NCBI GenBank assembly: GCA_902728285.1
Contig: CACVBU010000362.1
Coordinates: 1,655,540 to 1,719,539 of the forward strand
Length of the DNA: 64,000 bases
Origin: Clytia hemisphaerica
Lineage: Eukaryota > Cnidaria > Hydrozoa > Leptothecata > Clytiidae
Reading direction: 5' to 3'
Below are positions 296 through 20,500 of the stretch, one piece after another. The notes beneath the pieces are model-generated. The model did no database searches. It saw only the letters and a list, made by a program, of their open reading frames with translations, and had not been told where the DNA came from. Positions within the stretch are counted from its first letter, which is position 1, and every line of letters starts with the position of its first letter. Made by a program: the position numbers and the translations under genes.

Positions 296-3200
296 CTCCA
301 CAAGTCGATAAGATTCGGCTAACAGCGCATATTGTAATCGATTGAGAACAAAGCCAGCGACTTCTTTTTTGACAGTGATCGGTGACATTCCACATTCACG
401 CCATAAAGATAAAGTCTTCTCAACTACTTCCTATGAATTCAATTAAAAATTTAAAAGTTTAAACTGAAAATAGACTGATGAAGAATTCAATGTTGTAATA
501 ATGCAATGGCACAAAATAGGGCCAAAACAAAAATGTCTCAACACTGCTCAACAATTTTCCTGATCAAGACTTTTGGAGGGGAGATCTTTCGGAAGATGTA
601 ATAGGTGGCCATATCGAAAAAAATAAATACTATATCAGCCAGGTGGATTTTTTTCGTCAACGAACGAAGACCTGATTTAACGACCGAATACCTGAAACTG
701 CGGCTTTCGCAAATCTACGAATAACTACAAATACGACCGAATACCTGAATATTCTTGATTAGTGTAATTTATTAGAATTCATCAAGTACTCGGTCAGTTG
801 ATAAATATTTGAGTGACAGAAAACACAGCTTTGCAGGTCCTCAGTCGTCTAATCAGGTATTCGACCGCTAGTGAATTATACCAATTGAGAAAATTCAGGT
901 ATTCAGCCGAAGTTGCAAGCAGTCGGCCTTTAGATTAGTGAAAACTGCAGTTTCAGGTATTCGGCCGTTAAATCAGGTCTTTTTCAGTTAACGAAAAAAA
1001 ACATCTGCTCCGGCGCGAGACAAGATTCTCGTTATAGAAGTGACTATTTTCCTCAGATGGTTTATTGTTAAGCGCCTGCAGAGGTTAAACGTGAGGTTAA
1101 ATGATGACCATTTCTAGATTAGGTTAAGTTTAAAGGGATCATTATGAAGGTACCTGGTTGGTTTCAGTAGATGGCACGACCTCCAAGAAAGGGCACAACG
1201 CTGGTGGATTGACCTGTTGTAAAGAAATAAATAAATTCTTATATGCATTGAGCAGGTTTTTTCAAGAAGATTGATATATGGAATGATTAACAGGTTGTAA
1301 AATCAATCTTCATTAATGTCTTCCTTTTTTTTCAATTCGGGGGAAAATCAGTCTAAAATAGGGACATATTAAAACATATGAGTAGGTCAAAATCGAAATT
1401 CTTTTCTAGTCCACCAAAACCATGGTTGCGCTTCCTTAGTTCATATATTTTTGAACCCTCCAATTTCATAATCAAGACTTGGGCCTTGAATCTTTTCGGT
1501 TGTCAATGATTTTCATTAAAATCAAATCAACACAAACAGTAATTCATGATGTGAGAGGATGCATCGGAGGTCTAGAGGGTTTTCATGTTTGGTTAAGTTG
1601 TTGAATTTCCACCATTATTGATGAAATTCGATTTGAGATGGGATCGCCTCTATAGATTTGAACGTATGGTTCCAGAAATGGCTGAAATCGGTAACTTATA
1701 ACCAAACATGACTTCTCTACTTACCGGATGAGAGACTATACAGTTCTTTGTATGTTTGAGATTGAGGGTGAATTTGGATGGTACAATGCATGAAGTAGAC
1801 GAACTGAGGATCATATCATCTGAAGCCAATGAGTCGAATTCTTTGAAGACTTTCTGTTTCAATTCAAGGTTCTCTGGAACACTTTCCTATGAATTTAGAG
1901 TACACAAAAATAGGTTTTTCAATCTCACAAACAACAAGCAACATGCTGAATGGACCTACCTGATGATAAGAATCAGATGAAAAATATGACAAAAGGGAAT
2001 TCCCCCAAATAAGAAAATCCGATTTTTACGGCCAAAAAAAATTTTCCGAAAAAAACTGCTTCAGCCTTTTAGAGAACCTTGCCCTCCATCTTTATGCAAA
2101 AAATCAGAAAAAACTAATGAAGCAATTTCACACACTAAGTCCAAAAAACTTTTTTAGGCACTTTTTGGCAAGAATTTCCCCGTAAAAATGCGTTCATCTC
2201 TTGGAAGACTTTGTGTTGCAAGGATCTCTGGATCAATGTATTAGTCAATCAATCATTCTAATTTCAAGAAAGTTATTATTTCCGGGAGGGCCCCAAGACT
2301 ATGTTCTATGAAAATTTGGAGGAAATCCAAAAATCTATTCATATAGTATAGAAAACAAGAAAACATTCTTCTTTGAGACATACCTGCAAAAAGAACGCTC
2401 CACTCATTGCTTCTTTCAAGTCTGTTGCTGTAGTGACGAAACTAAATGCATCGTCAGCAGTTTTGACAGCCGTGTATTTTAGTAATCCTTTGCTTTCGAA
2501 ATCATCAAGATTGGCTTTGATTAGAATCATGGCCTCCTTCAGTTGTTTTTCAACGTTGTCGTATAGACAGACTGAGTAACCAGCCTTGGAAAATATCTAA
2601 AAAGAAATAAAATCAAAAAGTTCCATTGAATGTTTATGGGGCTTTTCAAGAAAAAAAACGCTTGAGGAGATCCATTTCAGTTTCAAGGGGGTAAGGTTGT
2701 GGCAGAATTCCATAGAGAAATACAAAAGTCAAAAATAACTGCAAGTCCATTGACTTTTAAAATCCTACAAAAACTCAGAATTCAAAAGGGTTCGAGCCTG
2801 AAATTCAGGGGGTTTCGGCATTTCCAGCCGCCAAGGGTTGGACATACTTTCCGGAAAACCCATTTACTGTTATGTTTCATTTGAAAGTAAAATCGAATGT
2901 TTTGTGGAACCGTTATCACCATTACAAAGACAAGAGGAAATCTGCTGAGTATCTTGGTCGGTAACCCTCTCCATGGTTTTTAAATTTGGCAATCTGTTAA
3001 TAGGGAGAAGCATGATAATAAGCTTTTGAGGTAGTGTCGATCTTTACTTACCACAGCGAAACTTCGGCCAACCAATCCACTATAAGAAATATTAAAATGA
3101 AATGAGAATCCAGAACACACTTTTTGGCCTAAGTTTTAAAAGACCTCAAACTCATTTTCACTCGCTATCAGGTATAACCATATGGTGCTTTATATAAAAC

Positions 3201-3378
3201 CCTGGAGGTAGTTTCTCACTCGGCAACACAAAATCTTTGATAAGAGTTTTTTTGAGAGTAGCACCCGCAAAAAAGTGAGATGAGATGTTAAGTAAAAGAA
3301 TACGAGTTAGTAGAATCGTTACCTTCCGACGATGCAAATTTTGCCTTTACTTTCCACTTTTGTTCTTTCGTTGCTCAT
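296..3378 (-). CDS. CRYL1: Lambda-crystallin / L-gulonate 3-dehydrogenase-like protein, unit 2 (continues beyond left edge)
   Basis: The unit begins in the same exon that ends unit 1 (3323-3623), at an in-frame Met at 3378. Further exons are 3052-3079, 2384-2596, 1725-1886, 1154-1213 and 296-430. Their lengths and phases are the same as in unit 1. The unit has its own NAD-binding GSGLVG motif, the [12 protein letters not shown] strand, the HP-VNPP catalytic signature and [13 protein letters not shown], so both active sites look intact. The window ends after the residues LVE. The exons equivalent to unit 1 positions 3867-3975 and the C-terminus lie to the left. The Met could be a start from a separate promoter, but no stop codon separates the units. 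This looks like tandem duplication followed by fusion. Confidence 0.88.
640..1010. mobile_element. Foldback element with about 60-bp inverted ends
   Basis: The left end (TTTTTTTCGTCAACGAACG, then GACCTGATTTAACGACCG and AATACCTGAAACTG) recurs inverted at 950-1005. Short CCGAATACCTGAA motifs repeat inside. It lies in the last visible intron of CRYL1 unit 2. Confidence 0.65.
1340..1490. repeat. Dispersed repeat also present near 51330-51480
   Basis: Both places contain CATGGTTGCGC followed by TCCTTAGT and a CCCTCC stretch in the same order and spacing. The family is unknown. Confidence 0.45.
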
Positions 3379-6300
3379 CGTATCGCCGACGGTCGTCGGT
3401 ACAGCGATGCCCGCTTTCTCGTTAATCCGATGAACAGCGAGTGCGGAAAGTCGTGAATCCCGAAGTTTTGATCGTTCAATGATCGATTCGACAGGTGCGA
3501 TGCGACACATCGATTCGTGGATTTTATCAATTGTTTCTTGTTTGAAGACTGTATTAGCTTCAGTTTGTTCTTGTATGATAGGCTCCATACTGGCTGTGTA
3601 ACGCTCGAAATAATCTTTGACGCCTATAAGGGGAGTAAAAAAACACCCTTTTCGAATTTCTGTTCCAAAGAACAAATAAGTTCGTTCGATAGGTGAATTT
3701 CAATTATACCTCAATTAACGTGTTCTTTAATTTCGCTATTTTTGATTCTGTTCGATTTACATTGTTGACTGCAGCGTTTTGGCAGGTCACGTAAACAACT
3801 GGCCCCCTAGCGGTCAGCTTCATAGAAGATGTCGAATGCTATATATGATGAATAATTATCGTATACCTTTTGGGGCATTGAGATGTATTGTTTCGAATGG
3901 GCCAATGAGAGACCATCTCATAGCGAGTCCATCTGTTAATGTTGTGTTGACATCTTCGGGTGAACAAACACCATTCTATGAAAGATTGAAACAAATAAAA
4001 CATAAGTACAGGGTGTTCCGAAAAAAGTATCGAGTTCGAACATGATTCTGAGTAGAAGCCTACCTGTATAATGGTTCTCAATTTTTTTTGGTAGTAGAAA
4101 GAAAAGGTTTTCATTCAAAGATGTTAAGTTATCTTTCATGATTAAGAAAAGTTTACTATATCATTTCCCTGGTAAAACACCTAAAAATATAAATGAATTA
4201 TGGAGCGATGGCCAAGTGGTCAAAGGCGTCAGCGTCTCAAACTAGGGATTCGCAGTTCGAATCCCTGTTCCTTCCGTTCAGTTCATAGATAGCTGAGCCA
4301 GCTGGCCGTAGACCCCGTGAAAACAATCGAAAGACTGTATAAAAGTCCTAGATTACTGGGCTATCCACGTAAAATATCGACTCTATCTATCTAATGCTGA
4401 ATTGCATGATAAACAAAAAACAACAATAGAGTGCATCAATAGCTGTTGTTCCACAACAATGATCCATCATCCATTGGACATATCGACCAGAAGTACACTA
4501 TCCATCTCGTTTGAAGGCTGTGCAATCGTGGTTTTCATCTTGACATTACTTTCCACCAAGATTTCCCTAGGTGTTTCCAGAATTTCCCCCAATGTTTCCA
4601 GAGTTTCCCTCAGTGTTTCTAGAGTTTCGAGCGTTGCATAAACCACACATCGTTTTACAGCTTTGCTTGAAATAATCATCATATCTTAATTCCATTAATT
4701 TTCGCGCGCCTCTAATTTTCACGCCTTCAATTTCGCGCAGCTCGTAAAATAGAATATTCCCGAATCCTTCAATTTTCGCGCATCTTGCAAATTCTGGGAT
4801 ATTTTCTGAGTGTTTTTTACGATTTAAAGTGAGTTTTACTCACTTTCAGTGTGTATTCAAGCTAGATTTTATATCCCAGAGGCTTATTTACCATGAATCG
4901 AGGTCCCATTTTATTAAAAGAGCCCTAAAATGAGATATCTACACGTTCAAAACGATTACTAATTCGCGCCCCCTTAATTTTCGCGCGGCCAAGTGCGCAA
5001 AAATAGGCCTATTTCACGGATTGTTGAACTGTGTCTTTACATGTATTCCCACCTTGGTTTCCTCTGGTGTTTCCAGAATTTCCACCATTGCCAAAAAAAC
5101 CACAAGTAAATTTGCTGTCGTCCTTCATCCATGACACATATTGGCCACTTGTGCAATACACAGGTTGTTTATATTGGGCACAGTTCGTCTTTCTCATTGC
5201 AAAACTTTTCAACAGTGTTTACAGAGTTATGTTTTGTACGTCTGATGATTGCCGGTAATTTTTTTAAACTTCGAAATCTTGAAATAAATTTATGAATTTG
5301 CTCTACAAAGCACTCTTTTAAACGATGTTCGACAACAATATACAGGAGTTCTTCAAAAACGAATTTTATGAGCTGTATTTCGAAAGACAGCAAAAAGCAA
5401 AAAGGTTAAGGAATGTGTTTTGAGATTCAAGATCTAGAACGACATAGGGATATGTCTTAGATGAGCGCTCCGTATGGAAAAGAGAGGTTATGAGTTTCAA
5501 ACAATCGAGAAAACCGTTAAAGGTTTTGTTTTTAAATAAGAGTGATATCGTTTGCTTACTCGTCAATTTTATTTTACAAGTTTTTTTATATTGAATTGAC
5601 ACTGATGTGGAGCAAGATTGGTCAGGAAGAGGAGAGGACAAACATTTTTTGCTTATATCAGCGCAATATAATAATGGGCAGGCACTGTCCTGATATGAAA
5701 CATGTATCTGATATGAAACGAGAACGATTATGTAAAAATAAAACCGTTGAGAATGAGAACGTAAACGAGTATCAAAACAATGATACACTATATTTAAGAA
5801 CAATTCTATAAGAACAATGAGAATTAAATGACAAATAATAAGAACTATTTTTAAGAATAAAGTTGAGCCTGGCATTGCTGAGTATTTAGCAAATAAAGGT
5901 CAATATTGAAAATTTGATAAAAGGTCTAAAATACCTCAGTTTTACACTAAAAATAAGAACAGAAATTAAGAAAAAATTGAAGCTTAAAAGACAACTGAGC
6001 TCGACATAAATTTACTGGTTTTTATTAAGAAAGGGAGTGGACATTTTTAATCCTAGAACTTTTAGAAAGTTTTTCGAATATTCTTAGACTACCTATGGTT
6101 TTGTAGTGGTCTGCAATTCAGACTAGGCTATCTTATGAGCCAAAGGTAAAATGGAATGGAAGGGGGGTTTGGACTGGGAGCCAATGATTAGTGACAAAGA
6201 CATCTCAATGCTTTTCAAATTATTAAGGATTGGATCAATTCAGTATTTTTCATCAAATTCTTTGTATGACTATAAACTTCAAGATTATTGTGAAAAATAA

Positions 6301-9300
6301 AACTTTTCAGAGTTGCTGATCGATGCACAGGTGATGTAATGTAATAAATCTTTTAAAGTAAAAAAATAATAATAAGATATTGTACTCGCGACGTAATCTT
6401 CGAATAAATTATAATAAAAACATAATCTTTAAAATCAATATTCTCAGATAACGACCATTCAGCAAAAAATGCTTTGATTCAATTAAGAATAATTCAAAGT
6501 TTAATTCCCTTCTACATTTTCATCTTTTTTCAATTTTTCACCGAGAACTTGAGCATGTGGTCCATGAGCACCTTTAGTGACGTCAAAAGCGGCTTGGTCA
6601 TCAAAAGGAGCCGAATGAGCGGCGCAACCAACATCAAGTTCGGGTGCTTGATGCGGCATCGATCGAACATCATCTTCTTTAACACCATGTGCACCATAAC
6701 AAGCATGATCTTCAAATGGATCTTGATGTGCGCATGTCCGAGCTTCATCATCCAAATTTCGGACACCTTGGTTACCTAGCAACGGTTCATTCTCGTTGTT
6801 TTTTGGTTGACAAAGTTTTAACATTTGAAGACATTTGTTGGATAAATTGTCCATGAATTCGAAATATGTTTTTCTCAAATTTTTGTCGATGAGAATTGTG
6901 ATTACTGAGCTGACCATTGGGCAAATGAGTGTTGCACACAAATATTGATTAGGTTGTCCCTTAAAGAAATCTCCATCAACATCTGGACTGAAAGTAGTTC
7001 TCACATCTGACATTATATTGACGAAAATGAATAATGATACAGTAATGATGAAGAAGAACCATACAGTGTGAGGACGAAGCTTATTGTCTTGAAATCGATA
7101 TCTGGAAGCAAAAGCTATCATCACCAGAAACGATATAACAGCGATGAAACTGAAAGTTAAAACAGCGGCCAATAAACCATTATCGTTGTAGATTGGGTGG
7201 TAATATGCAATGATAGGTAGTGCTAGTGTTGCGAAAAAGTACAATAGTTTGTATCTGAGTAATATGTTAATGGTCCTATTGCGATAATAAGTTAAAATAT
7301 ATCGTAGAAGTATGTAAAGGAGGCTGTGTAGCTGTTGAACGAAAATCATTGTAAAAGCGGCGAAAACGAGTTTCCAGTTATTAAACAACCACTTGACGTC
7401 ATTGAATTCCCTGAATGTAGAAACAAATATATTGAAAACCAAAGTCATTGGAAAGGTGTACGCAATTATTTGTACGATCAAAGTTTGTTGATATAAAAAG
7501 ATTGCTGATTTTTCGATGTACGTTGATCGTTGAAATAATCCAATCAATAAAACATGCCAAAATAATGTCCATAAACATACGAGTCCCAATGATATTGCAT
7601 TAACTCTTGCATGTAATGGATCAATTTCTGTCCATTGCCTTATAATTATATAGGTTGTTTGACTGCGTGATGTTTTCAGGGTAACAGTTTTTGCTACACT
7701 GACCCAAACACAAAAATAAATAAAAAACAGCAAAGAAACAAAGATGATTATTTTGCCAAAAATATGTTCCATTTCTAAATGTTTAATGTTAAAGTAAAAA
7801 TCATCATATGTGTTCAATTAACGTAAACAAGTTTTATAAAGTACAATTTTGTCGAAATATCATACCATACCAAATAGCTCATATTACCATTACCTTAGAT
7901 AAACAAACTTTACAAGAAATTTTTGTTTACTAAAAGAAGTCTTAACAGTAGAAGTAAGAAATCACTCACAGCAACATTCAAATAGGCACAATTGGAGCGT
8001 CCATCGTCAACATGAGGGTTTTATCTGTCGGCTCACTTATATTTTTCCTTACCTTACTGTTTCTCATATATTTTTGCATTTGGATAAATCATGCTTATGG
8101 AGTTTCAGTTAAAACAGAATATAATCATCAAATATACCCGGATACGGAAGTCCAAAACCAATGGACAGAGATAATGCCCTCAGAGGCGAGAAACAATGCT
8201 ATAATTTTGGGATTCGTATGTTTATGGACATTATTTTGGCATGTTTTATTGATTGGATTACTTCAACGATCAACGTACATCGAAAAATCAGCCATCTTTT
8301 TATATCAACAAACTTTGATTTTTCAATTGGTGTCTTACGCGCTTGATATGGTTTTTTATGTATCGTATATCTACCTCAGACCACTTCCACCATATATCGA
8401 AGAGGGAAAACGTGTCAATACATATTTTTTTGAGCAATTTCAAACTATTGTAAACCATTTCACAAAAGGCATCACACTGAGTCAACAAATAAGTTGCATC
8501 TCATACATAGCTATGAGATATTTTCTGACTTTCCATCCGACAGGCACATACAAAATACATCTTTTCCTCAAATCACTCTTTTTCTTCATCACGTTTGGCA
8601 TTCCTATACTCATTGAATATAAAGATGACTCCAATATAGAATTAAACTACATGGCCATAGGAATAATTATACTAACAGTTTTATCCTTTCTTTTGATGAT
8701 TCTTATCGGATCAAGAAATCGACCGTACGGGAATAAACTTCAACACCATACTGTGTGGTTCTCTTTAGTGGCAACCACAACGAACACTTTACTCTGTGAT
8801 TTAGACTTTGACATCGATTTTTACCAAGACTATTATGAAAACAGTGTTTGGTCGCCAGAAATAATTGATATTCCACTACCATCAACAATGTTGCTTTTCC
8901 CAATGGTCAGCTTGATAATCACCATCCTCGTTGATAAAAATTTGAGAAAATCATATTTCGAATTCATGGACAATTTATCCAACAAATGTCTTCAAATGTT
9001 AAAACGTTGTCAACCAAAAAACAACGAGAATGAACCGTTGCTAGGTAACCAAGGTGTCCGAAATTTGGATGACGAAGCTCGGACATGCGCACACCAAGAT
9101 CCATTTGAAGATCATGCTTGTTATGGTGCACATGGTGTTAGAGAAGATGATGTTCGATCGATGCCGCATCAAGCACCCGAACTTGATGTTGGTTGCGCCG
9201 CTCATTCGGCTCCTTTTGATGACCAAGCCGCTTTTGACGTCACTAAAGGTGCTCATGGACCACACGCTCAAATTCTCGGAAAACGATCGACCGCAAATGA

Positions 9301-12300
9301 AAATGAAATAGTTAATGTGGAAAAATGATATGAGTACACAGAGGAGCAAACAAACATGAACATGAACATCGTCGATTTAGATTTAATAACTCTCCATTAT
9401 AAATTTGCACTCAATTGAAAATTTTAAACGAAAACAACGTTTTTAGTTTTAACCTTAATAATGTTCTTAACATGTTCTTATTTTCACCATTTTGTGGACA
9501 TTTTGTCCATTTTCCTAAGAAATTGGGTATTTTAGAGTCCCCAAAGCTTTAAAATGTTCTTAACTTGTTCTTAACATTTTGGCCATCGAAGCCTTATGTT
9601 CTTATATAGTTTGTTCTTATAAAAAACGTTTATTTGTGTAAATTAAATTTGTTAAAATGTAAAACAAAAGTTTCTTACTCTAAAACACCCGATTTCTTAG
9701 CAAAATGGACAAAAATACTGAAAATAAGAACATGTTAAGAACATTTTTAGCCTTAAAACTAGCAAAAAGTTAAAAAAACATCCGAAGGCTTCGAAATATT
9801 TGGATGTTCTTATAAAAAAACGTGTAGGTATTCTCTTTATGGAAACACTTCAATTTTAATCTTTTCAATACCAAAGAAACGCTTTCGCGTTCCCTCTTAT
9901 TCGAAAACGAATTTGTTCAATTTTTAATGTTTGTCATCAAAATAATTATTTTTTAATTTAGCTATATCAATATTTTGAACTGGATTCAATCACCTGTGAC
10001 CTTCCTTGATTATTTGAAAATCAGTTACATGTTTTAGTATGTCAAATGAATAAAAAATAGACTTTGAATGTTTGCTGACTCCAACTGAAACTGATTACAC
10101 GAATTACACGCTTTTTCTATAAGAACCAGTTTAAGTTTGGCTCAGGCTGAGCTGTTCTTAGTTTTTTTTTTGTAATTTTTCAGGCTATGTTCTTACCATG
10201 TTCTTAAAACGCTTAGTTTCTTTACTTAAAATGGGGATTAAAATCTGTTAAAATCAGCACTTTCTATAGTCTCTGAAGTCTGAGGATTGTTCTTAATTTG
10301 TTCTTAGGTTTTTGCCAATTATCAGCCCCGTGTTCTTATGAAATTGTTCTTATAAAAAAGTGTATTCATTCTTCCAAATTTAGTAGTTTATCATAAAATT
10401 TAGTAGCTGTTGAAAGTCTTTCAAAGTTAAAATGCACCTTCGAAAAAGAGGTATTAAATTCATGCAATCATTGATAAAAGCTTTTTTTTTTTTAAATCAT
10501 TAAAATATTTTCATGTACAATCTTTGTTTAATTTAATATTTTTCAAAAAAACTTTTACATCAAAAGAAACATTATTTTAAGAAGATAAACTTGCAACCTG
10601 AAAAAAGGTTAAGAACTTGTAAACGCTTTGAAAAGTTTTGATGTTTGCTTTGTTAGATGGATTTGATTGTCACTGGCAAAACTGATTGGAAAATTAATTT
10701 CAAAATTCTAGAACACTATCATCAATGTTAACTCAGAAGTTGAACGGGAGAGGGAGTTTCATCGTTGGCATAGTTACAAAGGACATAACAAATAATAAAC
10801 AGTTAACATCTCTCAACCTTCGCTCAATCTTATGCCTGAACCAACTTGAAAAGTAATCAAAATACAGACTTTAGTTATCAAATTACAAGAGCCTTAGGTT
10901 GTTTTTGTTCAGTTATTATTTTTGCTGATTCAATTTTTAATTTGCATTTATACCTTACTTTTATCACTTTACGACCTTCAATATTGTCAGCTGTTCTTGA
11001 AATTATTATTTTCGAATTCGAGTTTCATTGATCTTAAGCAAGCTTTTCATAGTTTTTCTTGAAGTTTCATTGGGCGAGCGAATATAAAATTCTTTTGATG
11101 GAATAGCTCCTCCATAAAAAAATATTGAACCTTCTAAGGGGTTTGGTGTACGTTACATAATATAAGAGTTTACTAGCTTTGTTATCTTTGTCAATCGTAT
11201 TGATAATAAAGCTGTCATAAATTCCTCAGGTTTCCACTGTGATTATCTGTCACTAGGTTTGAGGTCTTCCCCTTCTTATTGCTAATTTGAAGCACCGCGC
11301 ACACGACAAAAACATTTTTGCACTGATAACCTTTCGCTTTAAGCCAGACACCTTACCTGGAACCCAGATCTTTATCCGACAAGCTAAAACTCTGAAGATC
11401 GAGAAAGTTTCCAATATCTGGAAGGTTTATATTACGGACCGCGTCAAGGATTTTGCAGCAGGATATCTAGACCACAGCCCTCGTTTTCGGGGATTGGCGA
11501 GTCCAACTGAAATATTTTCAGATTTACGTGCAAGGGTAGTTGAACCCAACTGGGGATGCGGCACATCAAAGGCCGTCGTTTATTTTCCCTCTCTGATGGG
11601 AAATTGGGCCACTCCTTTAGAACTTTAATGTGACGTGTGCGGCCGCCAATCCGGCATCGGAATAATAGATAGCCAGACAATGTGAAAAAATAGCGATAGC
11701 ATGAACTTTTACCCTGACTACAGAATAACTTGATAGCCCAGCTGGCACACAACGTTTATCTAACGTTCACAACGTCCACATAACGTTAGATGAACGTTAA
11801 AATAACATTGTTTGCCAGCTGGGAGTTTTTAAACAATTGAAACGGAAACTGAGAAATGAAAAAAAAAAAGAAATTGAAAAACTTACCTCGACAAGGCGGT
11901 AGGCTTCACCCATCAAAGCGTATTGTAATCGATTGAGGACAAATCCAGCGACTTCTTTTTTGACAGTGATCGGTGACATTCCACATTCACGCCATAGAGA
12001 TAAAGTCTTCTCAACTACTTCCTATGAATGGGAGATATCCTTTTTCAAACGGGCCAATCTCATAATAGTCGAACGTGCGCAACGCACTGGGCTCAACTTC
12101 AGTAGCTTTAAATTATTTATAGGCCCAATTGTAGACCCCCCAGATATTCATTCATTCATCCACAAGGAACAAGTGTGTCCAAAATTTCAGCCTGATCCAG
12201 ATTGCTGCCCCAAAGTTTTAGCCTCATTTTTTTCTCACCCAGGCACCAAAAATAAAAGTTTCTGAAAAATGAAAAAAAAATCCCCAGATAATCACTTAAG

Positions 12301-15290
12301 GAACAAGTGTGCAAAATTTCAGCCAAATCCGACAATTTTTGAAGTTAGAATATTCAGAAAGTTGCCTCTTTTACACGAAAAAGGCAAAATAAAGGTCACC
12401 AAAAAAAAAACGGTGGCGTCACCTCAACTCGGACAGATTTGTTAGTTATGCAGACTCCACTGTTTCTTATCTTTGTAACATTAGACATTTTCATTTAAAG
12501 CAGAGAAATTGATTAAAGTTTTATTATGTCAGTTGATCTTCACAACGTTCATATTTGGAAAAGGGATTCGGAAATTACCTGGTCAGTTTCTGGTGAAGGG
12601 AGAATCTCAATGAACGGACACAGTGCTGGTGGATTGATCTATGGAGAAAGGATAGACCAGAGATATTTTCACGTTTTCATTGTTAATACTTGTTAGAAAT
12701 TTATACTTTCATATCATTCTCCTCACTAGCTCGAAAATTCCTTTTGATAAAAGATAAACAGATATAACGGCTAGATCCGAAACTCCTGGATGGGAAATGA
12801 AGCCACTTATTCCCCATCCAGAATACGCGACCCGTGTGTTTTCAAATAAAATTTCTAAATGTGGGGCAAACTTAAGGCTTCACTTTTGCTTATTTACGAG
12901 ATTCCTCTCTAGCCCATTCGGGGCTTCAAACTCAGTGATTTTCACATTCTGACCACTTTCTAGAATGATCAACGTAACATCTTAGCCGATAAATTTCGAT
13001 AAATTTTGGATTTTAGAAATTGACGTTGGGAAACTCTCATCAATTTATTGTATTAAAAAGAGCATTATAGTAGTAGGCAAACCCTTTAGGACCCGTGTCA
13101 TTTTTTATGCGGCGCAATCATACCTTGGTCCATTTCAAAAAATAAAGTATCTTTAAATCTTTTCGCGGGGGTGGTTTCAGCTAAGGTCAAGGAAACTTTT
13201 TTAGGACCCAAAAAATGACGTCACAGGCAAAACCCCAAAACCCCCCAAAAATTGACGACATCTCAAAGTCAATAAAACCCAAAACCACTTATGCCAATCG
13301 AAAGCTCTCAAAAACGATATAGAGGACTTTTAAGTGGATGCAGTCGATTTCTCAATCTCGAAAAAATTAACGTCAAAATTGCGTTTTGACGTCATTTCCA
13401 GTCGATTTACAAGAGCTACGTCACGGGTCCTTGCATGTACTATTAGGAATTTAAATTCAAACTTTCATTCCATTGTCAATACCTTAAAAAATCCTATTTG
13501 ATTCATTGACACAGGGGTGTGCGAAAGGATTGTAATTAACACTTACAGGGTGCGAGACAAGACAGTTCTTTGTATGTTTGAGATTGAGGGTGAATCTAGA
13601 TGGCACGATAGCCGAAGTTGAGGAGCTGAGGATCATATCCTTTGATGCCAATGCGTCAAATTCTTTAAAGATTTTCTGTTTTAATTCAAGGTTCTCTGGC
13701 ACACTTTCCTACAAAATGAAAAAAGGAGAAAGTGTGGAATAATCAAGCCAAATAACACCCAAAGACCACGCTAAATTAGTCTAAAAATGAGAAAGCGAAC
13801 ACGCATAATTTCCATTTTAGCAGTACAAGGAAAGTCAGAAAAGTGATCTACTTTGACCAGAAAAAGAAGGCTTCACGAATAATCCTCAACGCGATATTCC
13901 CCTTCTTGGAGGGAGAGGTTAACGTCAGGTAAGGTACCTCTACCCCATTGATATCTTGGAGTTGGAGATGAGTTTCTTTTATCCATCGAACTCTACTGGC
14001 AATGAATTAAATTAAGTGTTAAAAAAGAAAAATGAGTTTTTTATCATACTTATGATAATAAAAATATACCTGCAAAAAGAATGCTCCATCCATAGCTTCT
14101 TTCAAATCAAGTGTCGTTGAAATCATTGAAAATGCATCGTCAGCAGTTTGGTGAACACAATCTTTCAGTAATCCTTTGTTTTCAAAATCTTCCAATTGTG
14201 CTTTGATGAGTATCATGGCATCTTTCAGTTGTTGTTCGACTGTATCGTGTAGACTAACTGAATAACCAGCTTTGGAAAAAATCTGAAATGGAAAATAAGA
14301 CCCTGTTTTGTTTGTTCTCGAAACACACTGGTATGCAATAAGTCAAAAACCAGTAGAAGATTTCGATGATAACTTAGCGCATTCTTAGTTTAAAAAAACG
14401 GGACTTTTATCCCGCATCTGTTAAATTTCTCGCAATTTCATTACCCATAAGCCATCATGGGGATATTAAAAAATATACCGTATTTTTTCCCGCGCTAAGA
14501 TTCACAAAAAAAATTAGAGAGATTGAGACGGACAAAATTTTTTGAATGTTTTGAAGCACAATAGACGGACTGAATCGAAATCTGATCCAGAATTTGCTGG
14601 TCCATTATATCCCGTATCCCGTATTCTACCCTCGAAAACGGCGTAACTAATTATATTTAGTGTAAAGTTTACGCCCAAATGATATTATATAGAAAACTCA
14701 ATGAAAAAATGTTGCGCAGTATGATGCGTATTTAAAAAACTGAAAACTTACGACAGCAAAGCTTCGACCAACGATGCCACTAAAAAGATAAAACATTGAA
14801 CTGAAATCACAGACAGCTTACACAAAACACTAAACGGCCATTCCAGAGGAAGTACGTTATGTCATACCCGTTTTTTACTGGATACTGCGCCAGCAGGGAC
14901 CTAAGAGCGCCGCGACCATGCACCATTTAAGAGCACCCATAGAGGTGGTTCAATCTCCAAATTGTGATTGACAATTTCTCGGAATAACCCTACATTGTTT
15001 TTCTCGTGTGTTTAGGCAGAAATATTCATTATTTAAGACGAATCAATACAACAATTTTAAAATCACTATCCAAAGAATGTCCCAAACAACTCGTTCAGGT
15101 ATCAGAAATACATAAAAATTAGTACAATTTTGTTAAGATATTGGTAATAGTAAAATTAGGCTGTTTGGCCTCAGATAGAAAACCCACTTATGCTAGCTCG
15201 ATTTTTTTTAAAAATCTATCCTTACCTGCCTACCAAGCATACTTTTCCTTTGCTGTCAGTCTTGCTTCTTTTAGCATTCGGTTCAGCCAT
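3379..15290 (-). CDS. CRYL1: Lambda-crystallin / L-gulonate 3-dehydrogenase-like protein, unit 1 (N-terminal half of a fused two-unit gene)
   Basis: Eight exons on the minus strand: 15226-15290, 14752-14779, 14070-14282, 13547-13708, 12579-12638, 11887-12021, 3867-3975 and 3323-3623 (shared with unit 2). All have GT/AG borders and matching phases. The start is the ATG at 15290. About 339 residues precede the second unit. Visible are the Rossmann motif GSGIVG near residue 21, the ILSSSTS active-site strand, the catalytic-His signature SHP-INPP (His about 155), the [13 protein letters not shown] segment and the [11 protein letters not shown] segment. The family reduces or oxidises 3-hydroxy acids with NAD, for example L-gulonate to 3-dehydrogulonate, in the cytosol. 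The reading frame does not stop after the C-terminal helix (NEKAG) but continues into unit 2. Intron 6 (3976-11886) contains two other genes. Family is clear; substrate is inferred. Confidence 0.9.
4202..4400 (+). mobile_element. tRNA-derived SINE
   Basis: A polymerase III A-box (TGGCCAAGTGG) lies at about 4209 and a B-box (AGTTCGAATCC) at about 4254, in tRNA-like spacing. The acceptor and T stems do not pair fully, so this is not a working tRNA. About 120 bp of unrelated tail follows. It resembles a Leu/Ser-type tRNA head. The 3' end is uncertain. It sits in intron 6 of CRYL1 unit 1. Confidence 0.5.
4569..4640. repeat. 21-bp tandem repeat
   Basis: Three units of the form GTGTTTCCAGAATTTCCC. 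A related unit lies at about 5060. Confidence 0.5.
5517..5750. mobile_element. TTAA-flanked MITE (copy 1)
   Basis: The element starts after TTAA with AGGTTTTGTTTTTA and ends with TAAAAATAAAACCG before TTGA. It is the same family, in opposite orientation, as 63337-63575. TTAA targets point to a piggyBac-like or Kolobok-like mover. Confidence 0.65.
6501..7772 (-). CDS. Intronless multi-pass membrane protein, receptor-like, nested in CRYL1 intron (copy A)
   Basis: Single open frame of about 423 residues. An upstream in-frame Met at 7817 exists, but the Met at 7772 matches the start of the paralogue at 8012. By eye there is an N-terminal hydrophobic stretch (signal peptide or first helix) and seven more hydrophobic helices. 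The last is followed by ILIDKNLRK, which looks like the end of a 7TM bundle plus helix 8. The hydrophilic C-tail of about 120 residues carries an acidic dileucine sequence (NENEPLL) and three His/Asp-rich repeats of about 16 residues. I do not recognise the family. A lineage-specific 7TM receptor or transporter is possible. It lies on the host-gene strand and is divergent from copy B. Confidence 0.75.
   Translation of the reverse strand: MEHIFGKIIIFVSLLFFIYFCVWVSVAKTVTLKTSRSQTTYIIIRQWTEIDPLHARVNAISLGLVCLWTLFWHVLLIGLFQRSTYIEKSAIFLYQQTLIVQIIAYTFPMTLVFNIFVSTFREFNDVKWLFNNWKLVFAAFTMIFVQQLHSLLYILLRYILTYYRNRTINILLRYKLLYFFATLALPIIAYYHPIYNDNGLLAAVLTFSFIAVISFLVMIAFASRYRFQDNKLRPHTVWFFFIITVSLFIFVNIMSDVRTTFSPDVDGDFFKGQPNQYLCATLICPMVSSVITILIDKNLRKTYFEFMDNLSNKCLQMLKLCQPKNNENEPLLGNQGVRNLDDEARTCAHQDPFEDHACYGAHGVKEDDVRSMPHQAPELDVGCAAHSAPFDDQAAFDVTKGAHGPHAQVLGEKLKKDENVEGN
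7773..8011. promoter_or_regulatory. Spacer between the head-to-head membrane-protein genes (putative shared promoter)
   Basis: The two start codons are 239 bp apart on opposite strands, so promoters for both must lie here or overlap the 5' coding ends. The DNA is AT-rich. I see no convincing TATA box or long palindrome in it. The role is inferred from arrangement only. Confidence 0.4.
8012..9328 (+). CDS. Intronless multi-pass membrane protein, receptor-like, nested in CRYL1 intron (copy B)
   Basis: Single open frame of 438 residues. Hydrophobic segments lie at about residues 5-25, 63-84, 94-121, 156-172, 184-202, 214-233, 247-262 and 291-308. A hydrophilic tail follows from 309. Residues 52-100 are very similar to copy A ([39 protein letters not shown]). 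The middle helices diverge strongly, and the tail is almost identical at both protein and nucleotide level. The ENEPLL motif near 339 fits a [DE]xxxL[LI] endocytic sorting signal. Family unknown; the membrane topology is a reading of hydrophobicity only. Confidence 0.75.
   Translation: MRVLSVGSLIFFLTLLFLIYFCIWINHAYGVSVKTEYNHQIYPDTEVQNQWTEIMPSEARNNAIILGFVCLWTLFWHVLLIGLLQRSTYIEKSAIFLYQQTLIFQLVSYALDMVFYVSYIYLRPLPPYIEEGKRVNTYFFEQFQTIVNHFTKGITLSQQISCISYIAMRYFLTFHPTGTYKIHLFLKSLFFFITFGIPILIEYKDDSNIELNYMAIGIIILTVLSFLLMILIGSRNRPYGNKLQHHTVWFSLVATTTNTLLCDLDFDIDFYQDYYENSVWSPEIIDIPLPSTMLLFPMVSLIITILVDKNLRKSYFEFMDNLSNKCLQMLKRCQPKNNENEPLLGNQGVRNLDDEARTCAHQDPFEDHACYGAHGVREDDVRSMPHQAPELDVGCAAHSAPFDDQAAFDVTKGAHGPHAQILGKRSTANENEIVNVEK
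9430..9826. mobile_element. Rearranged CACGTTTT-family MITE
   Basis: It consists of pieces of the 60825-61157 element: its left half inverted, then its right half direct, ending AAAAAAACGTGTA. The many TTCTTA/TAAGAA motifs are typical of the family. Confidence 0.5.
10105..10364. mobile_element. TA-target MITE of the CACGTTTT family
   Basis: It starts TACACGCTTTTTCTATAAG and ends CTTATAAAAAAGTGTA, so the ends are inverted and bounded by TA. Confidence 0.65.
11737..11823. mobile_element. 87-bp palindromic MITE with CCCAGCTGGCA ends
   Basis: It begins CCCAGCTGGCACACAACGTT and ends GTTTGCCAGCTGGG. Several AACGTT motifs lie between. Confidence 0.6.
12050..12400. repeat. Single diverged copy of the 155-bp array element
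   Basis: The stretch from GTCGAACGTGCGCAACGCAC to the CAGATATTCA and GGAACAAGTGTG motifs matches the left end of 22840-24010. It is in intron 5 of CRYL1 unit 1. Confidence 0.6.
13070..13441. mobile_element. Possible TIR element (AGGACCCGTG ends)
   Basis: TTAGGACCCGTGTCA at the left and TCACGGGTCCTTGCATG at the right form imperfect inverted ends. No clear target duplication is seen. Confidence 0.35.
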
Positions 15291-16105
15291 TATGAATAGT
15301 ATTAGTGTAATTAATTTTTTTATTAGTACACTAGAAAAAAAATGAATGAATAATTAAAATATTAAGTGTAAAAATTCAGACGAGCAGTGATTTAAGGCTG
15401 AAAGAACTACCATTTATCACACTCCGGGGGAGGGGTACTAGGTTTACAAGTGACTAATTTGACCAAATTTCGATGTTTTTAGTGGGAATTTTTTTTCCGA
15501 CTCTTAATGGGACTGACATTTAACTTTCTGATTTTTTCAATTCTTACAGGGACTGTACACCCGTGCCATTCACTTGTCTAAGTATCCCCCCGATCACACT
15601 ATTAGTAAAGTTTCAAAACTGTAAGAGTTTAAGGGAAGATCTTGGATAAAATAAAACGAACAAAATGTAATGGTCGAATTGTATGGACACTTTGATGAAA
15701 TTGCAAGCATCCTAACCATTCTCCCAAATATATTGACAGAAGTTATCCGGAATACTATTTACTTCTTTGAATTGACTTGATTTGTCCTTGTATATATATA
15801 AACAAACGAGTTGCTAAACACTCAGTCCTCAAAATGGCCCAAAAATTATGTAACACTAGTTGTATGTACAATGTTTAAATATTCTTACACAACTTAAGCC
15901 TGGATACCAAAAATTCCTAAGAAAGTTCATTCCTCAGAGAACCTAGTCTTTGGTCCAAAATAAGGATTGTCTGTACATTTTTCAGGGATTTTTGAGAGTT
16001 TTTTTTTTTTCAGAAAAAAGTTTGAAACAATAACGTAACTTTGGCATCTTCATCAGATGGATGGCATGTAGTTTGAGAGTGAATAAAACAAAAAACTACA
16101 CCAAT

Positions 16106-17247
16106 CAGGGGGGGGGGGGTCAGTGTACTAGAAGGCGGCATGTATGTGTACTACAAGGTATTTTTCAAAACTTGACACCCACCCACCCCTGAAGTACACC
16201 ATACTACATGGAAAAATCCTAAAACCACCCCATACCCCCTATTTTCTACCCAGGTAGTACCTGGTAAAAAACCAAAACCACCCCATACTCCCCATTTACT
16301 ACCGGGTACTACCTCGAAAAATCCGGAAAATAGAGAAACTTTTTTCCGAAAATCGGAAAATCGGGTAAACATTTTTCCAAAAATCGGGAAATCGGGAGAT
16401 CGGGAAAACTTTTTTTCGGAAAATCGGGAAATCGGGAAATTGAGAAAACTTTTTTCCAAAAATCAGAAAAACAGGAAAATTTTTCTTAAAAATCCAAAAT
16501 GGGTGAGAAATCAAACTTTTCAAAAATTACGTGAGACCATGTAGAAATGCATGAGTCTCACACTCAATGCGTGAGAGTTGGCACCTCTAATGTACGAATG
16601 TTGAATGTTTGAATTCAAATGTTCGAATGTTTACATTGACTCGATAAACCTTCATTTCAGTGGGATCTGGTAGGATTTCAATTCATTCCAAGAAGTTTGG
16701 AAGAATGATCTTGCTTGGACAAACTTGGCTTGATCAATTTATAATAGAACAACTTTACATTTCTATTTTAGCAGATAATTTCTTAACCTTTTTGTTTCCA
16801 CACTGTTAACATCGATTTTGGACCCAACACCCCTATTTTGGTACACAGGTAGTAAAAATCAAAATCGATTTTGGACCCAACACCCCTATTTTGGTACACA
16901 TGTAGTAAAAATCAAAATCGATTTTGGACCTAACACCCCTATTTTGGTACACAGGTAGTAAAAATCAAAATCGACTTTGGACCCAACACCCCTATATTGG
17001 TACACAGGTAGTAAAAATCAAAATCGATTTTGGACCCAACACCCCTATTTTGGTACACATGTAGTAAAAATCAAAATCGATTTTGGACCTAACACCCCTA
17101 TTTTGGTACACAGGTAGTAAAAATCAAAATCGATTTTGGACCCAACACCCCAATTATAGTACACAGGTAGTACATGACAATTTTTTTTCTCAAACACCCA
17201 CCCACCCCAGGATACATGCCACCTTCTGGTACACTGACCCCCCCCTG
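16106..17247. mobile_element. Non-autonomous hAT-like element
   Basis: The ends are inverted: CAGGGGGGGGGGTCAGTGTA with AGAAGGCGGCATGTAT at the left, mirrored at 17207-17247. Flanks repeat CACCAAT (7 bp). Inside are GGGAAATCGGG-like runs at 16315-16500 and a 53-bp minisatellite at 16811-17172. There is no transposase. Confidence 0.75.
16811..17172. repeat. 53-bp minisatellite, seven copies
   Basis: Units begin ATCGATTTTGGACCCAACAC at 16811, 16864, 16917, 16970, 17023, 17076 and 17129. The spacing is exactly 53 bp. The array is part of the hAT-like element. Confidence 0.95.
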
Positions 17248-17527: not shown

Positions 17528-20500
17528 TCATGATTTATCTTCTTCTTTTTTATCTTTATTTTCGCCTTCTTGGTTTTCGCTAAGTGCTTGTAATGCATTT
17601 TGAATATCAGCACTGTTAGGATCGACACCAGGTAGATTGCCAACAATTTGTTGTAAGAGTTCAGGGTTGTTCATGACTTCACTATAGTCTTGGTATTCAT
17701 CCATAGGTTGATCAGAAGCAGGTGCTGGTGTCTAGGAGGGAAAATATGGTAGGTTTAGAATAGACTTTTTTCTAGTTAGAATTATGCTGAATAAGTAAAA
17801 TCTCCAGCATCAAAATAATGAACAACCGATTAAAAATTATTTTTATCACCGTTTTGATGATGGAGTTTTAATTATTCAACATGACATCTTTATAGCAAAA
17901 GGTCCATAGTGCCATAAGTGTTTGAGAATGTCCTCAGAATATTGAGTACTAAATGGGTATTATTATCCATATAGCGGTCATTAAGTAAGCCATTAAAGAT
18001 TCGAACGGCGGGCGGTATTGAAAGGTTCTATGACTAAAATAGTCATACCCGCGCTGAGAAAAGGCGTCGCGCTTCTGAGGGCTGAAATATCATTAACCGC
18101 CCTGGTTATAGGGCGATAACGTCATTTGCGGCCCGCTCGGAACTTTATTGAAGTCGTTGCATTGAAGAGAAAAGACGAAACTAACGTCAGAAAAAAACAC
18201 TTTTTGGTCATTTGTGGCCCACTCGCAAGGGTACTCAAAACTTGTTGAAGTCATTGCATTGAAGCGAAAAGATTTGGCCGACGCTAGAAAAAAACGTTGT
18301 TTGAATGTCCGATATAAATAATAATAGTAATAGCGTTAAGCTTTCGTTCGTTGTTGTCATTAATTCTGCCCTTGCAGTTTGATTATTAGCCCTCTCGGGC
18401 TAATAATCAAACTGGGCGGGCAGAAAATAACAACAACGACCTCAAACTGAACGCTATTGTTATATTAATCGGTATAGAAAGCAAAATCTAACGAGTTCAT
18501 TTTTATGAGAGAGTTTTGTAATTTACATTAATACAGATCTAGTAGAATACAAAATCTAGTAAGTAAGTATGCGACCGCAGTTGGAGGCGACCCGAAGACT
18601 CCTCTTTCGATAGCTATCTACCCGAAGGTAGGGGAGGGCGTCACTCTTTCTCCCTGGATTTCTCCATTTACCCTTGATCATTCTCTTAATTGCCGAGCAT
18701 CAAGCAGACAGGCATCAAGTACTATTTTGAGAATCTTTGGTATGACCCGGCTGGGGGTTAAACCCCCAACCTTGCAAACTGTAGCCGAATGCTCTACCAC
18801 TGTACCACGGTTTGCCAAAATCTATCTTAGAACAATTGTGTCATGTTGTGTTAGATAAAGACCTCGTTATATTCGTATTTAGTTGATGAATGTTCTTTTG
18901 GACTCTCTCTCTTTTGGAAATTTCTATAAGGAATTTCGAATAAATCATCATATTGAAAAAACGTTCTCTTACATCAGTATCCATGGCGGTAGGTGTATCT
19001 TTTTTAGCGTCATCTGCATTAGCATCATTCATTGACATCTGTATGGCTAATGCGATTTGATCTTCCTCTGACATTGCATTGAAATCAACAGAGTTCTGAA
19101 GAAATTTGAGTTCGTAAGGTAATATTTCAAGTCATCAATATTAATAAAGGAAAATTCTGTATAACTGTACATATATTACAACTTCACGTCACCAAGGACT
19201 AAGCAAAGTTGTTTTTGTAGGAGCAACGGAACTCTAGTTTTTTTACAAATTTTATTTTCAACTGAGGATTGTTTGAATAAGACATGAAACTGTCAGTATT
19301 AATACGATAATTTTCACTGCCTCAACTATCATATAACTTTACATATAAATCTGTATGCAACTTTTACACAACTAGACCATTCTATTACAGAATAATTTTT
19401 TTAGAAACCAAGTCAAAGAAAGGAATCACACTTTTCTGAATCCTGACAAGATTTTACTAAAATATCTGTAAAAAGCATAAATTTCTTACGCCACCAGGAT
19501 ACATGGCGTTCATCAAAAGAGAATCTTCAGTTCCTCCAGTAGTAGCTTCAGTTTTTCCACCAGCAGCCGGTGTAGTGGTAGCAGCACCTTCTCCTTCAGG
19601 TTTTGTTGGGTCTTGACGCAGCCTTTGCTCTTCCATGGATACTCTCAAAGCCTGAAAAAGGTTAATTTCATTTCATTTTACTTAAGCTGTACTTCTGAAG
19701 GAAACACGTGACAGAGGCATTTGTATTTTTGCCTGTGTTATACTTCTAAAAGAATCTGTAAATCTTTCCAAAACATTTATCATTTTCTTACATTTTTTGT
19801 TAACTATATTATAGTAATTTTCAAGGGCATTGTCTTCATTAATCGAAAAGTTGATATTCTGTTCAAATATGAGTAGATTTAAAAGAGACAAAAATGAGCT
19901 CAAAACTCACCAATGCTAATTCAGGGTCAAGATTTGGATCTACATCAAAACCAGATCCAAAATCACCACCAGCCGGTGTGTAGCCATCTTCTCCTTGCAC
20001 AATTGGTGATGTACGTAAAGCATCTGTTAGGTTAGGACTTGGTGGTACAACAACCAAGTGACTCCTAAACGTTAAATGACAAGGATGTTTGATTTAAATA
20101 TTATACAATTATTATCCTAAAGAGTGATGCTTCTCTTAGACATGCAATAATGCCATACGAAGTCTTTGACAAAATGCATTTTAGGCAAAAATATATGATT
20201 GTAATTCTTTATGCAATATTTAAATTACATAGGGCAATCTCTCAAAGAAACTTGAAATCTGAATCAAATGAACATTTTTGTTTGTCAAAAATGAGTGATG
20301 TACCCTGTGCCTTCTTTTCCATTTATAGTTTCAACGAATTGTGTGAGTTTATCGTGGGTTGGTGTCTATAAAAGAAATACAAGATCAGGTTTTTTAAAGA
20401 GGTGAAAAATATACGACTTAATACCACTCAAGTTTATGGTTTATACTGCAGAAAACCAGAAGAATTTGAACCAATCACTAATAAAGCTGTTACTTACTAA

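Follow-up and report, generated by a model that had tools for sequence, protein, structure and literature searches.

Two CRYL1-type dehydrogenase units in one open frame in Clytia hemisphaerica: a probable single gene for a covalent tandem enzyme

The stretch of DNA analysed here, 64,000 nucleotides of Clytia hemisphaerica (contig CACVBU010000362.1:1655540-1719539, part of a 417-Mb assembly; from here on referred to as the window), contains two CRYL1-type dehydrogenase units that follow each other in one open frame, and judging by their sequence they probably belong to a single gene in which two such enzymes would be encoded as a covalent tandem. One fused gene had been proposed in the original prediction and this was upheld at the DNA level, where the units were found to have an exon in common, with no stop codon, splice consensus or poly(A) signal identified between them and an AATAAA following unit 2, together with a low dN/dS, while the search of the assembly yielded no further CRYL1 locus. 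The covalent protein is what we infer from this gene.

Gene structure and the junction between the units

The window is recognisably eukaryotic from its spliced genes. The gene model is situated on the minus strand and consists of 15 exons, with GT-AG borders in 14/14 introns, and it encodes 666 aa with a calculated mass of 73,967 (74 kDa), the terminal TAA being the sole stop. Thirteen CRYL1-type exons lie in the window between 15290 and 296 (-) and the final two were read from the adjoining 10 kb of the same contig (L006). Position 296, previously taken as the end of the gene, is actually the 3' border of exon 6 in unit 2, with two further exons located outside the window. A stop is present in frame upstream of the first ATG of unit 1, and an AATAAA is found 201 nt 3' of the TAA stop of unit 2. 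The features of the gene are given below, where positions with a minus sign are relative to the window (0 = the base before the window).

15226..15290, minus strand: unit 1 exon 1, with the start codon (donor gtaagg)
14752..14779, minus strand: unit 1 exon 2, 28 nt, binding loop (GT-AG)
14070..14282, minus strand: unit 1 exon 3, 213 nt (inside the 3HCDH_N match)
13547..13708, minus strand: unit 1 exon 4, 162 nt, SSSTS (exon model)
12579..12638, minus strand: unit 1 exon 5, 60 nt, with residue 167 aligned to rabbit E157 (exon model and 3ado alignment)
11887..12021, minus strand: unit 1 exon 6, 135 nt, AGFVLNR (exon model)
3976..11886, minus strand: unit 1 intron 6, 7.9 kb, holding two intronless divergent reading frames (exon model)
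3867..3975, minus strand: unit 1 exon 7, 109 nt, DGLAMRW and IGPFET (inside the 3HCDH match)
3323..3623, minus strand: fusion exon, 301 nt, with the coding end of unit 1, the 11-residue junction and the start of unit 2 (open frame; no inner splice site by the set criteria)
3052..3079, minus strand: unit 2 exon 2, 28 nt (exon model)
2384..2596, minus strand: unit 2 exon 3, 213 nt (exon model)
1725..1886, minus strand: unit 2 exon 4, 162 nt, SSSTS (exon model)
1154..1213, minus strand: unit 2 exon 5, 60 nt (exon model and 3ado alignment)
296..430, minus strand: unit 2 exon 6, 135 nt, AGFVLNR (exon model)
-191..-299, minus strand: unit 2 exon 7 (same contig, L006)
-839..-1059, minus strand: unit 2 exon 8, ending in TAA (same contig, L006)

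When analysing exon 3623-3323 in the frame fixed by its flanking splice sites it was found to be open throughout, beginning with VKDYFERY, and stops appeared in both other forward frames. A consensus scan, in which a donor was defined as GT-purine-A-G/T and an acceptor as AG with >60% pyrimidines in the preceding 14 nt, revealed neither donor nor acceptor inside the fusion exon, including the part before the second Met. The proposal that one unit runs into the next in this exon, with no stop or intron in between, agrees with both the open frame and the scan. The C-terminus of unit 1, VHRINEKA, is followed by 11 residues and the second Met, a correction of the 12-residue linker first proposed, and the corresponding C-terminus of unit 2 reads VHRNNEKAKL before the stop. 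Between the final residue aligned in unit 1 and the first strand of unit 2 the tether amounts to 31 residues. Neither AATAAA nor ATTAAA was found over the 346 nt that lie between the unit 1 C-terminus and exon 2 of unit 2. An ATTAAA is located at 3731, in intron 7 of unit 1, and a premature 3' end there is possible on the strength of this motif. A 71-nt junction query, run for the origin of the linker, had no second match of >12 nt in the surrounding 104 kb.

Several other elements were observed in and around the gene. The two frames in intron 6 of unit 1, at 7817-6501 (-) and 7958-9328 (+), are intronless and arranged head-to-head (438 and 456 aa), by eye hydrophobic and multi-pass, and they are identical to each other at 226 of 422 aligned positions, with no Pfam match for either. 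Identity reaches 93.7% over the 3' 411 nt but the middle has diverged, and gene conversion may have occurred between the two frames. The region 4201-4400 consists of a tRNA-like head (GGAGCGATGGCCAAGTGG...AGTTCGAATCCC) and a tail, uncalled by ARAGORN and perhaps a tRNA-derived SINE, of which a second copy was absent at E 1e-3 in 104 kb; the tRNA scan and the Rfam scan of the window gave 0 and 0. On the 5' side of the gene a pyrimidine tract followed by TAG (TTTTTTTTCTAG) is situated at 15331-15345 (-), 40 nt 5' of the first ATG, and possibly marks a 5' UTR intron or a trans-splice acceptor. Beyond it follow a tandem array at 16811-17172, with a unit of 53 nt in 6.8 copies and 95% matches, and exons at 17528-20093 (-) that by eye resemble the C-terminal half of the proteasome subunit PSMD4/Rpn10, three of which, tried one by one, gave no Pfam match. 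Directly downstream of the fused gene (L006:1068-3680) there is an ATCGAT-rich stretch of about 1.3 kb in two adjoining copies, 99.2% identical over 1315 nt.

Relationship to lambda-crystallin and comparison of the units

Pfam searches identified 3HCDH_N (PF02737) twice and 3HCDH (PF00725) twice in the 666-aa protein. When each unit was compared alone, the best solved relative was rabbit lambda-crystallin, 3ado (E 8.9e-80 for unit 1 and 8.7e-81 for unit 2), then human 3f3s; the E values per unit against these two ranged from 1e-76 to 8.7e-81, and the next best, 4om8, reached 5.7e-32 with the whole protein. The closest solved relatives are the lambda-crystallins and not HADH or FadB. The alignment to lambda-crystallin is nearly full length (residues 13–320 of unit 1 and 11–318 of unit 2), with an identity to 3ado over 243 positions of 45.7% for unit 1 and 46.9% for unit 2. 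The closest NCBIfam model is that of the bacterial 3-hydroxyacyl-CoA dehydrogenase PRK06129 (NF004783), whose 315 positions correspond to one unit and which scored 347.3 bits with unit 1 and 336.8 with unit 2, the cut-off being 347.

Among 11 inspected positions, eight are kept by both units: D36, S124, H145, N148, P154, E157, N196 and R231 (rabbit 3ado numbering), of which D36, S124, H145, E157, N196 and R231 were chosen as what we take, from work on L-gulonate 3-dehydrogenase, to be catalytic or NAD positions. Rabbit Y151, Y152 and I153, close to the catalytic His, are replaced by A, L and C in both units, so that the loop after HPxNPP reads ALCP instead of YYIP, and the substrate may therefore differ from that of the vertebrate enzyme. 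The motifs said earlier to be kept by both units were all recovered (GSGIVG/GSGLVG, SSSTS, HPINPP/HPVNPP and AGFVLNR). CRYL1 is L-gulonate 3-dehydrogenase, EC 1.1.1.45 (PMC12435205). The reaction of the units predicted from their sequence is likely to be the NAD-dependent oxidation of L-gulonate. A CRYL1 chain normally consists of a single unit and forms a homodimer. The fused gene is like CRYL1/lambda-crystallin/L-gulonate 3-dehydrogenase (3ado, 3adp, 3f3s) in its 3HCDH_N and 3HCDH domains, the near full-length alignment and the eight positions kept per unit, but differs in having two units per chain and ALC in place of Y151-Y152-I153. With two units in one 666-aa chain it was filed as a fused variant of the CRYL1 family and not as an ordinary member.

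When comparing the units with each other (339 and 327 residues, unit 1 being counted to the second Met), 260 of 324 aligned positions were identical (80%) and exon lengths were equal in all six comparable exons, 2 to 7 (28, 213, 162, 60, 135 and 109 nt), which together point to more than a chance open frame. Substitution rates between unit 1 and unit 2 were dN 0.135 and dS 0.99 with NG86 and dN 0.133 and dS 1.15 with YN00, giving a pairwise dN/dS of about 0.14 that is an average over both lineages. The low dN together with a dS of about 1 indicates that the duplication is old and that the pair is under purifying selection. The introns of the two unit regions share no match in blastn, the four matches obtained covering exons 6, 4, 3 and 5 and reaching no more than about 20 bases beyond them. 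Similarity between the units is higher in exon 6 and in the latter half of exon 8 than elsewhere. A 52-nt run identical between them had a site-shuffling probability of 0.0008 while two synonymous-codon tests for gene conversion were not significant (0.14 and 0.16), all of these being shuffles that take no account of uneven constraint. With the evidence mixed in this way, gene conversion between the units is a possibility suggested by the pattern of identity.

A search with unit 1 against the whole 417-Mb assembly gave 16 matches from 16 candidates. Of these, 13 were exons of the fused locus, which left unmatched among its 15 exons only the two of 28 nt, and the other three belonged to dehydrogenase genes with 27–28% identity. 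The family search with PF02737 gave five matches from 22 candidates, namely two exons of the fused locus and the same three dehydrogenase genes. Protein search with the best candidates scored thus revealed no second CRYL1 locus among the 417 Mb, and these counts are lower bounds, as a diverged copy could escape; the assembly is also collapsed and an unfused allele would not show in the locus count. A third unit or further copy was looked for as well, and none was found in the 104 kb around the gene or, again as a lower bound, in the assembly. Matches to 3-hydroxyacyl-CoA dehydrogenase at the loci L001 and L002 lie in frames that run uninterrupted for 333 and 340 aa and are perhaps intronless, unlike the fused gene. 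When searching genome contigs for relatives, 142 stretches fitted one of two patterns and none of them encoded a relative; both patterns were narrow, being made from near-identical units, and the search is for that reason uninformative on bacteria.

Possible origin and product of the fused gene

Most simply, the gene would have arisen from an ancestral CRYL1 gene that was duplicated in tandem, with subsequent loss of the stop codon, the 3' end and the 5' end between the copies, probably through a deletion that brought the final coding exon of copy 1 together with the initial coding exon of copy 2. Transcription from a single promoter upstream of 15290 to a single poly(A) site beyond unit 2 would then give one mRNA and one 74-kDa protein. 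With an intron 6 of 7.9 kb containing two other reading frames, this assumes transcription across the intron. In the protein the 31-residue stretch would serve as a tether and the two units would most likely pair as an intramolecular dimer in place of the usual homodimer, each unit presumably using NAD+ to oxidise L-gulonate or a similar 3-hydroxy acid. As a speculative extension, put forward only tentatively, the sole CRYL1 of the species may be an obligate covalent dimer that goes back to a duplication of considerable age (dS about 1) and in which the units are starting to specialise, so that an intramolecular heterodimer replaces the homodimer; it might then accept two substrates and have a shifted pocket (ALC for YYI).

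It is also conceivable, though rather unlikely, that the fused protein exists while its units are not paired together, forming instead chains of dimers via other chains, or that one unit is a mere scaffold. With YYI changed to ALC in both units, substrate and geometry may differ from those of the vertebrate enzyme, which gives this arrangement some room. A tether of 31 residues could nevertheless span a dimer, the checked catalytic positions are kept in both units, and the dN/dS speaks against a dead unit, though as an average over both lineages.

That the units are instead two tandem genes sharing or overlapping one exon and giving separate mRNAs, unit 2 from an internal promoter at MSNERTKV and unit 1 with a different, unseen last exon to terminate it, is improbable. 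Such an arrangement would fit with unit 2 beginning like a CRYL1 protein at a Met of its own, with the other reading frames in intron 6 and with the ATTAAA at 3731 in intron 7, but the shared exon contains no stop for unit 1, and read-through into the next intron stops only past the N-terminus of unit 2 (at ...KICIVGR). It is further contradicted by the junction itself, where the set criteria place no acceptor before the second Met in the shared exon and neither AATAAA nor ATTAAA occurs in the 346 nt that follow the unit 1 C-terminus. Even though tandem repeats tend to misassemble and the locus was judged from the assembled sequence, an assembly or sequencing error (two genes misjoined, or a lost base masking a stop) is very improbable, as the joined sequences, a unit end and a unit start, are non-homologous and would not be joined at that point by a repeat collapse, the junction query has no second match of >12 nt in 104 kb, the frame holds on both sides with both splice sites fitting, and a single locus was found in the assembly.

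Known gene fusions and implications

Larger relatives such as PaaH and FadB add other domains and are not known to add a complete second unit. Fusions involving a 3HCDH enzyme have been described in the rotifers Adineta, Didymodactylos and Rotaria, where it is joined to DUF1907 (Galperin 2025, PMC12435205); in these the partner is the BKG decarboxylase, which acts next in the pathway, while in the fused CRYL1 gene the partner is its own copy. To judge from the titles of the studies, duplication and fusion of a single-domain gene also gave rise to two-domain arginine kinases in clams and sea anemones and to two-domain taurocyamine kinases in flukes (Compaan & Ellington 2003, Suzuki 1997 and others, cited in PMC6429109). 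As far as these titles tell, they likewise have two full homologous units in one chain, but they belong to an unrelated family, and in the fused gene the CRYL1 units join within one exon. Among the papers found in a literature search with subscription journals mostly outside its coverage, none reports a tandem CRYL1 fusion by its title or abstract opening. The expectation that a covalent tandem would be unusual stands, as far as seen, for the CRYL1 family, but does not extend to enzymes generally, where the principle of duplication and fusion is already known, as in the arginine kinases.

For gene-prediction pipelines the locus is a warning, since such a gene may be split in two. For the family it appears to be a natural case in which a homodimeric oxidoreductase became a single chain by stop loss between tandem copies, the genome search having revealed no unfused copy as a fallback, and it allows the direct question of whether covalent linking frees two active sites to diverge.
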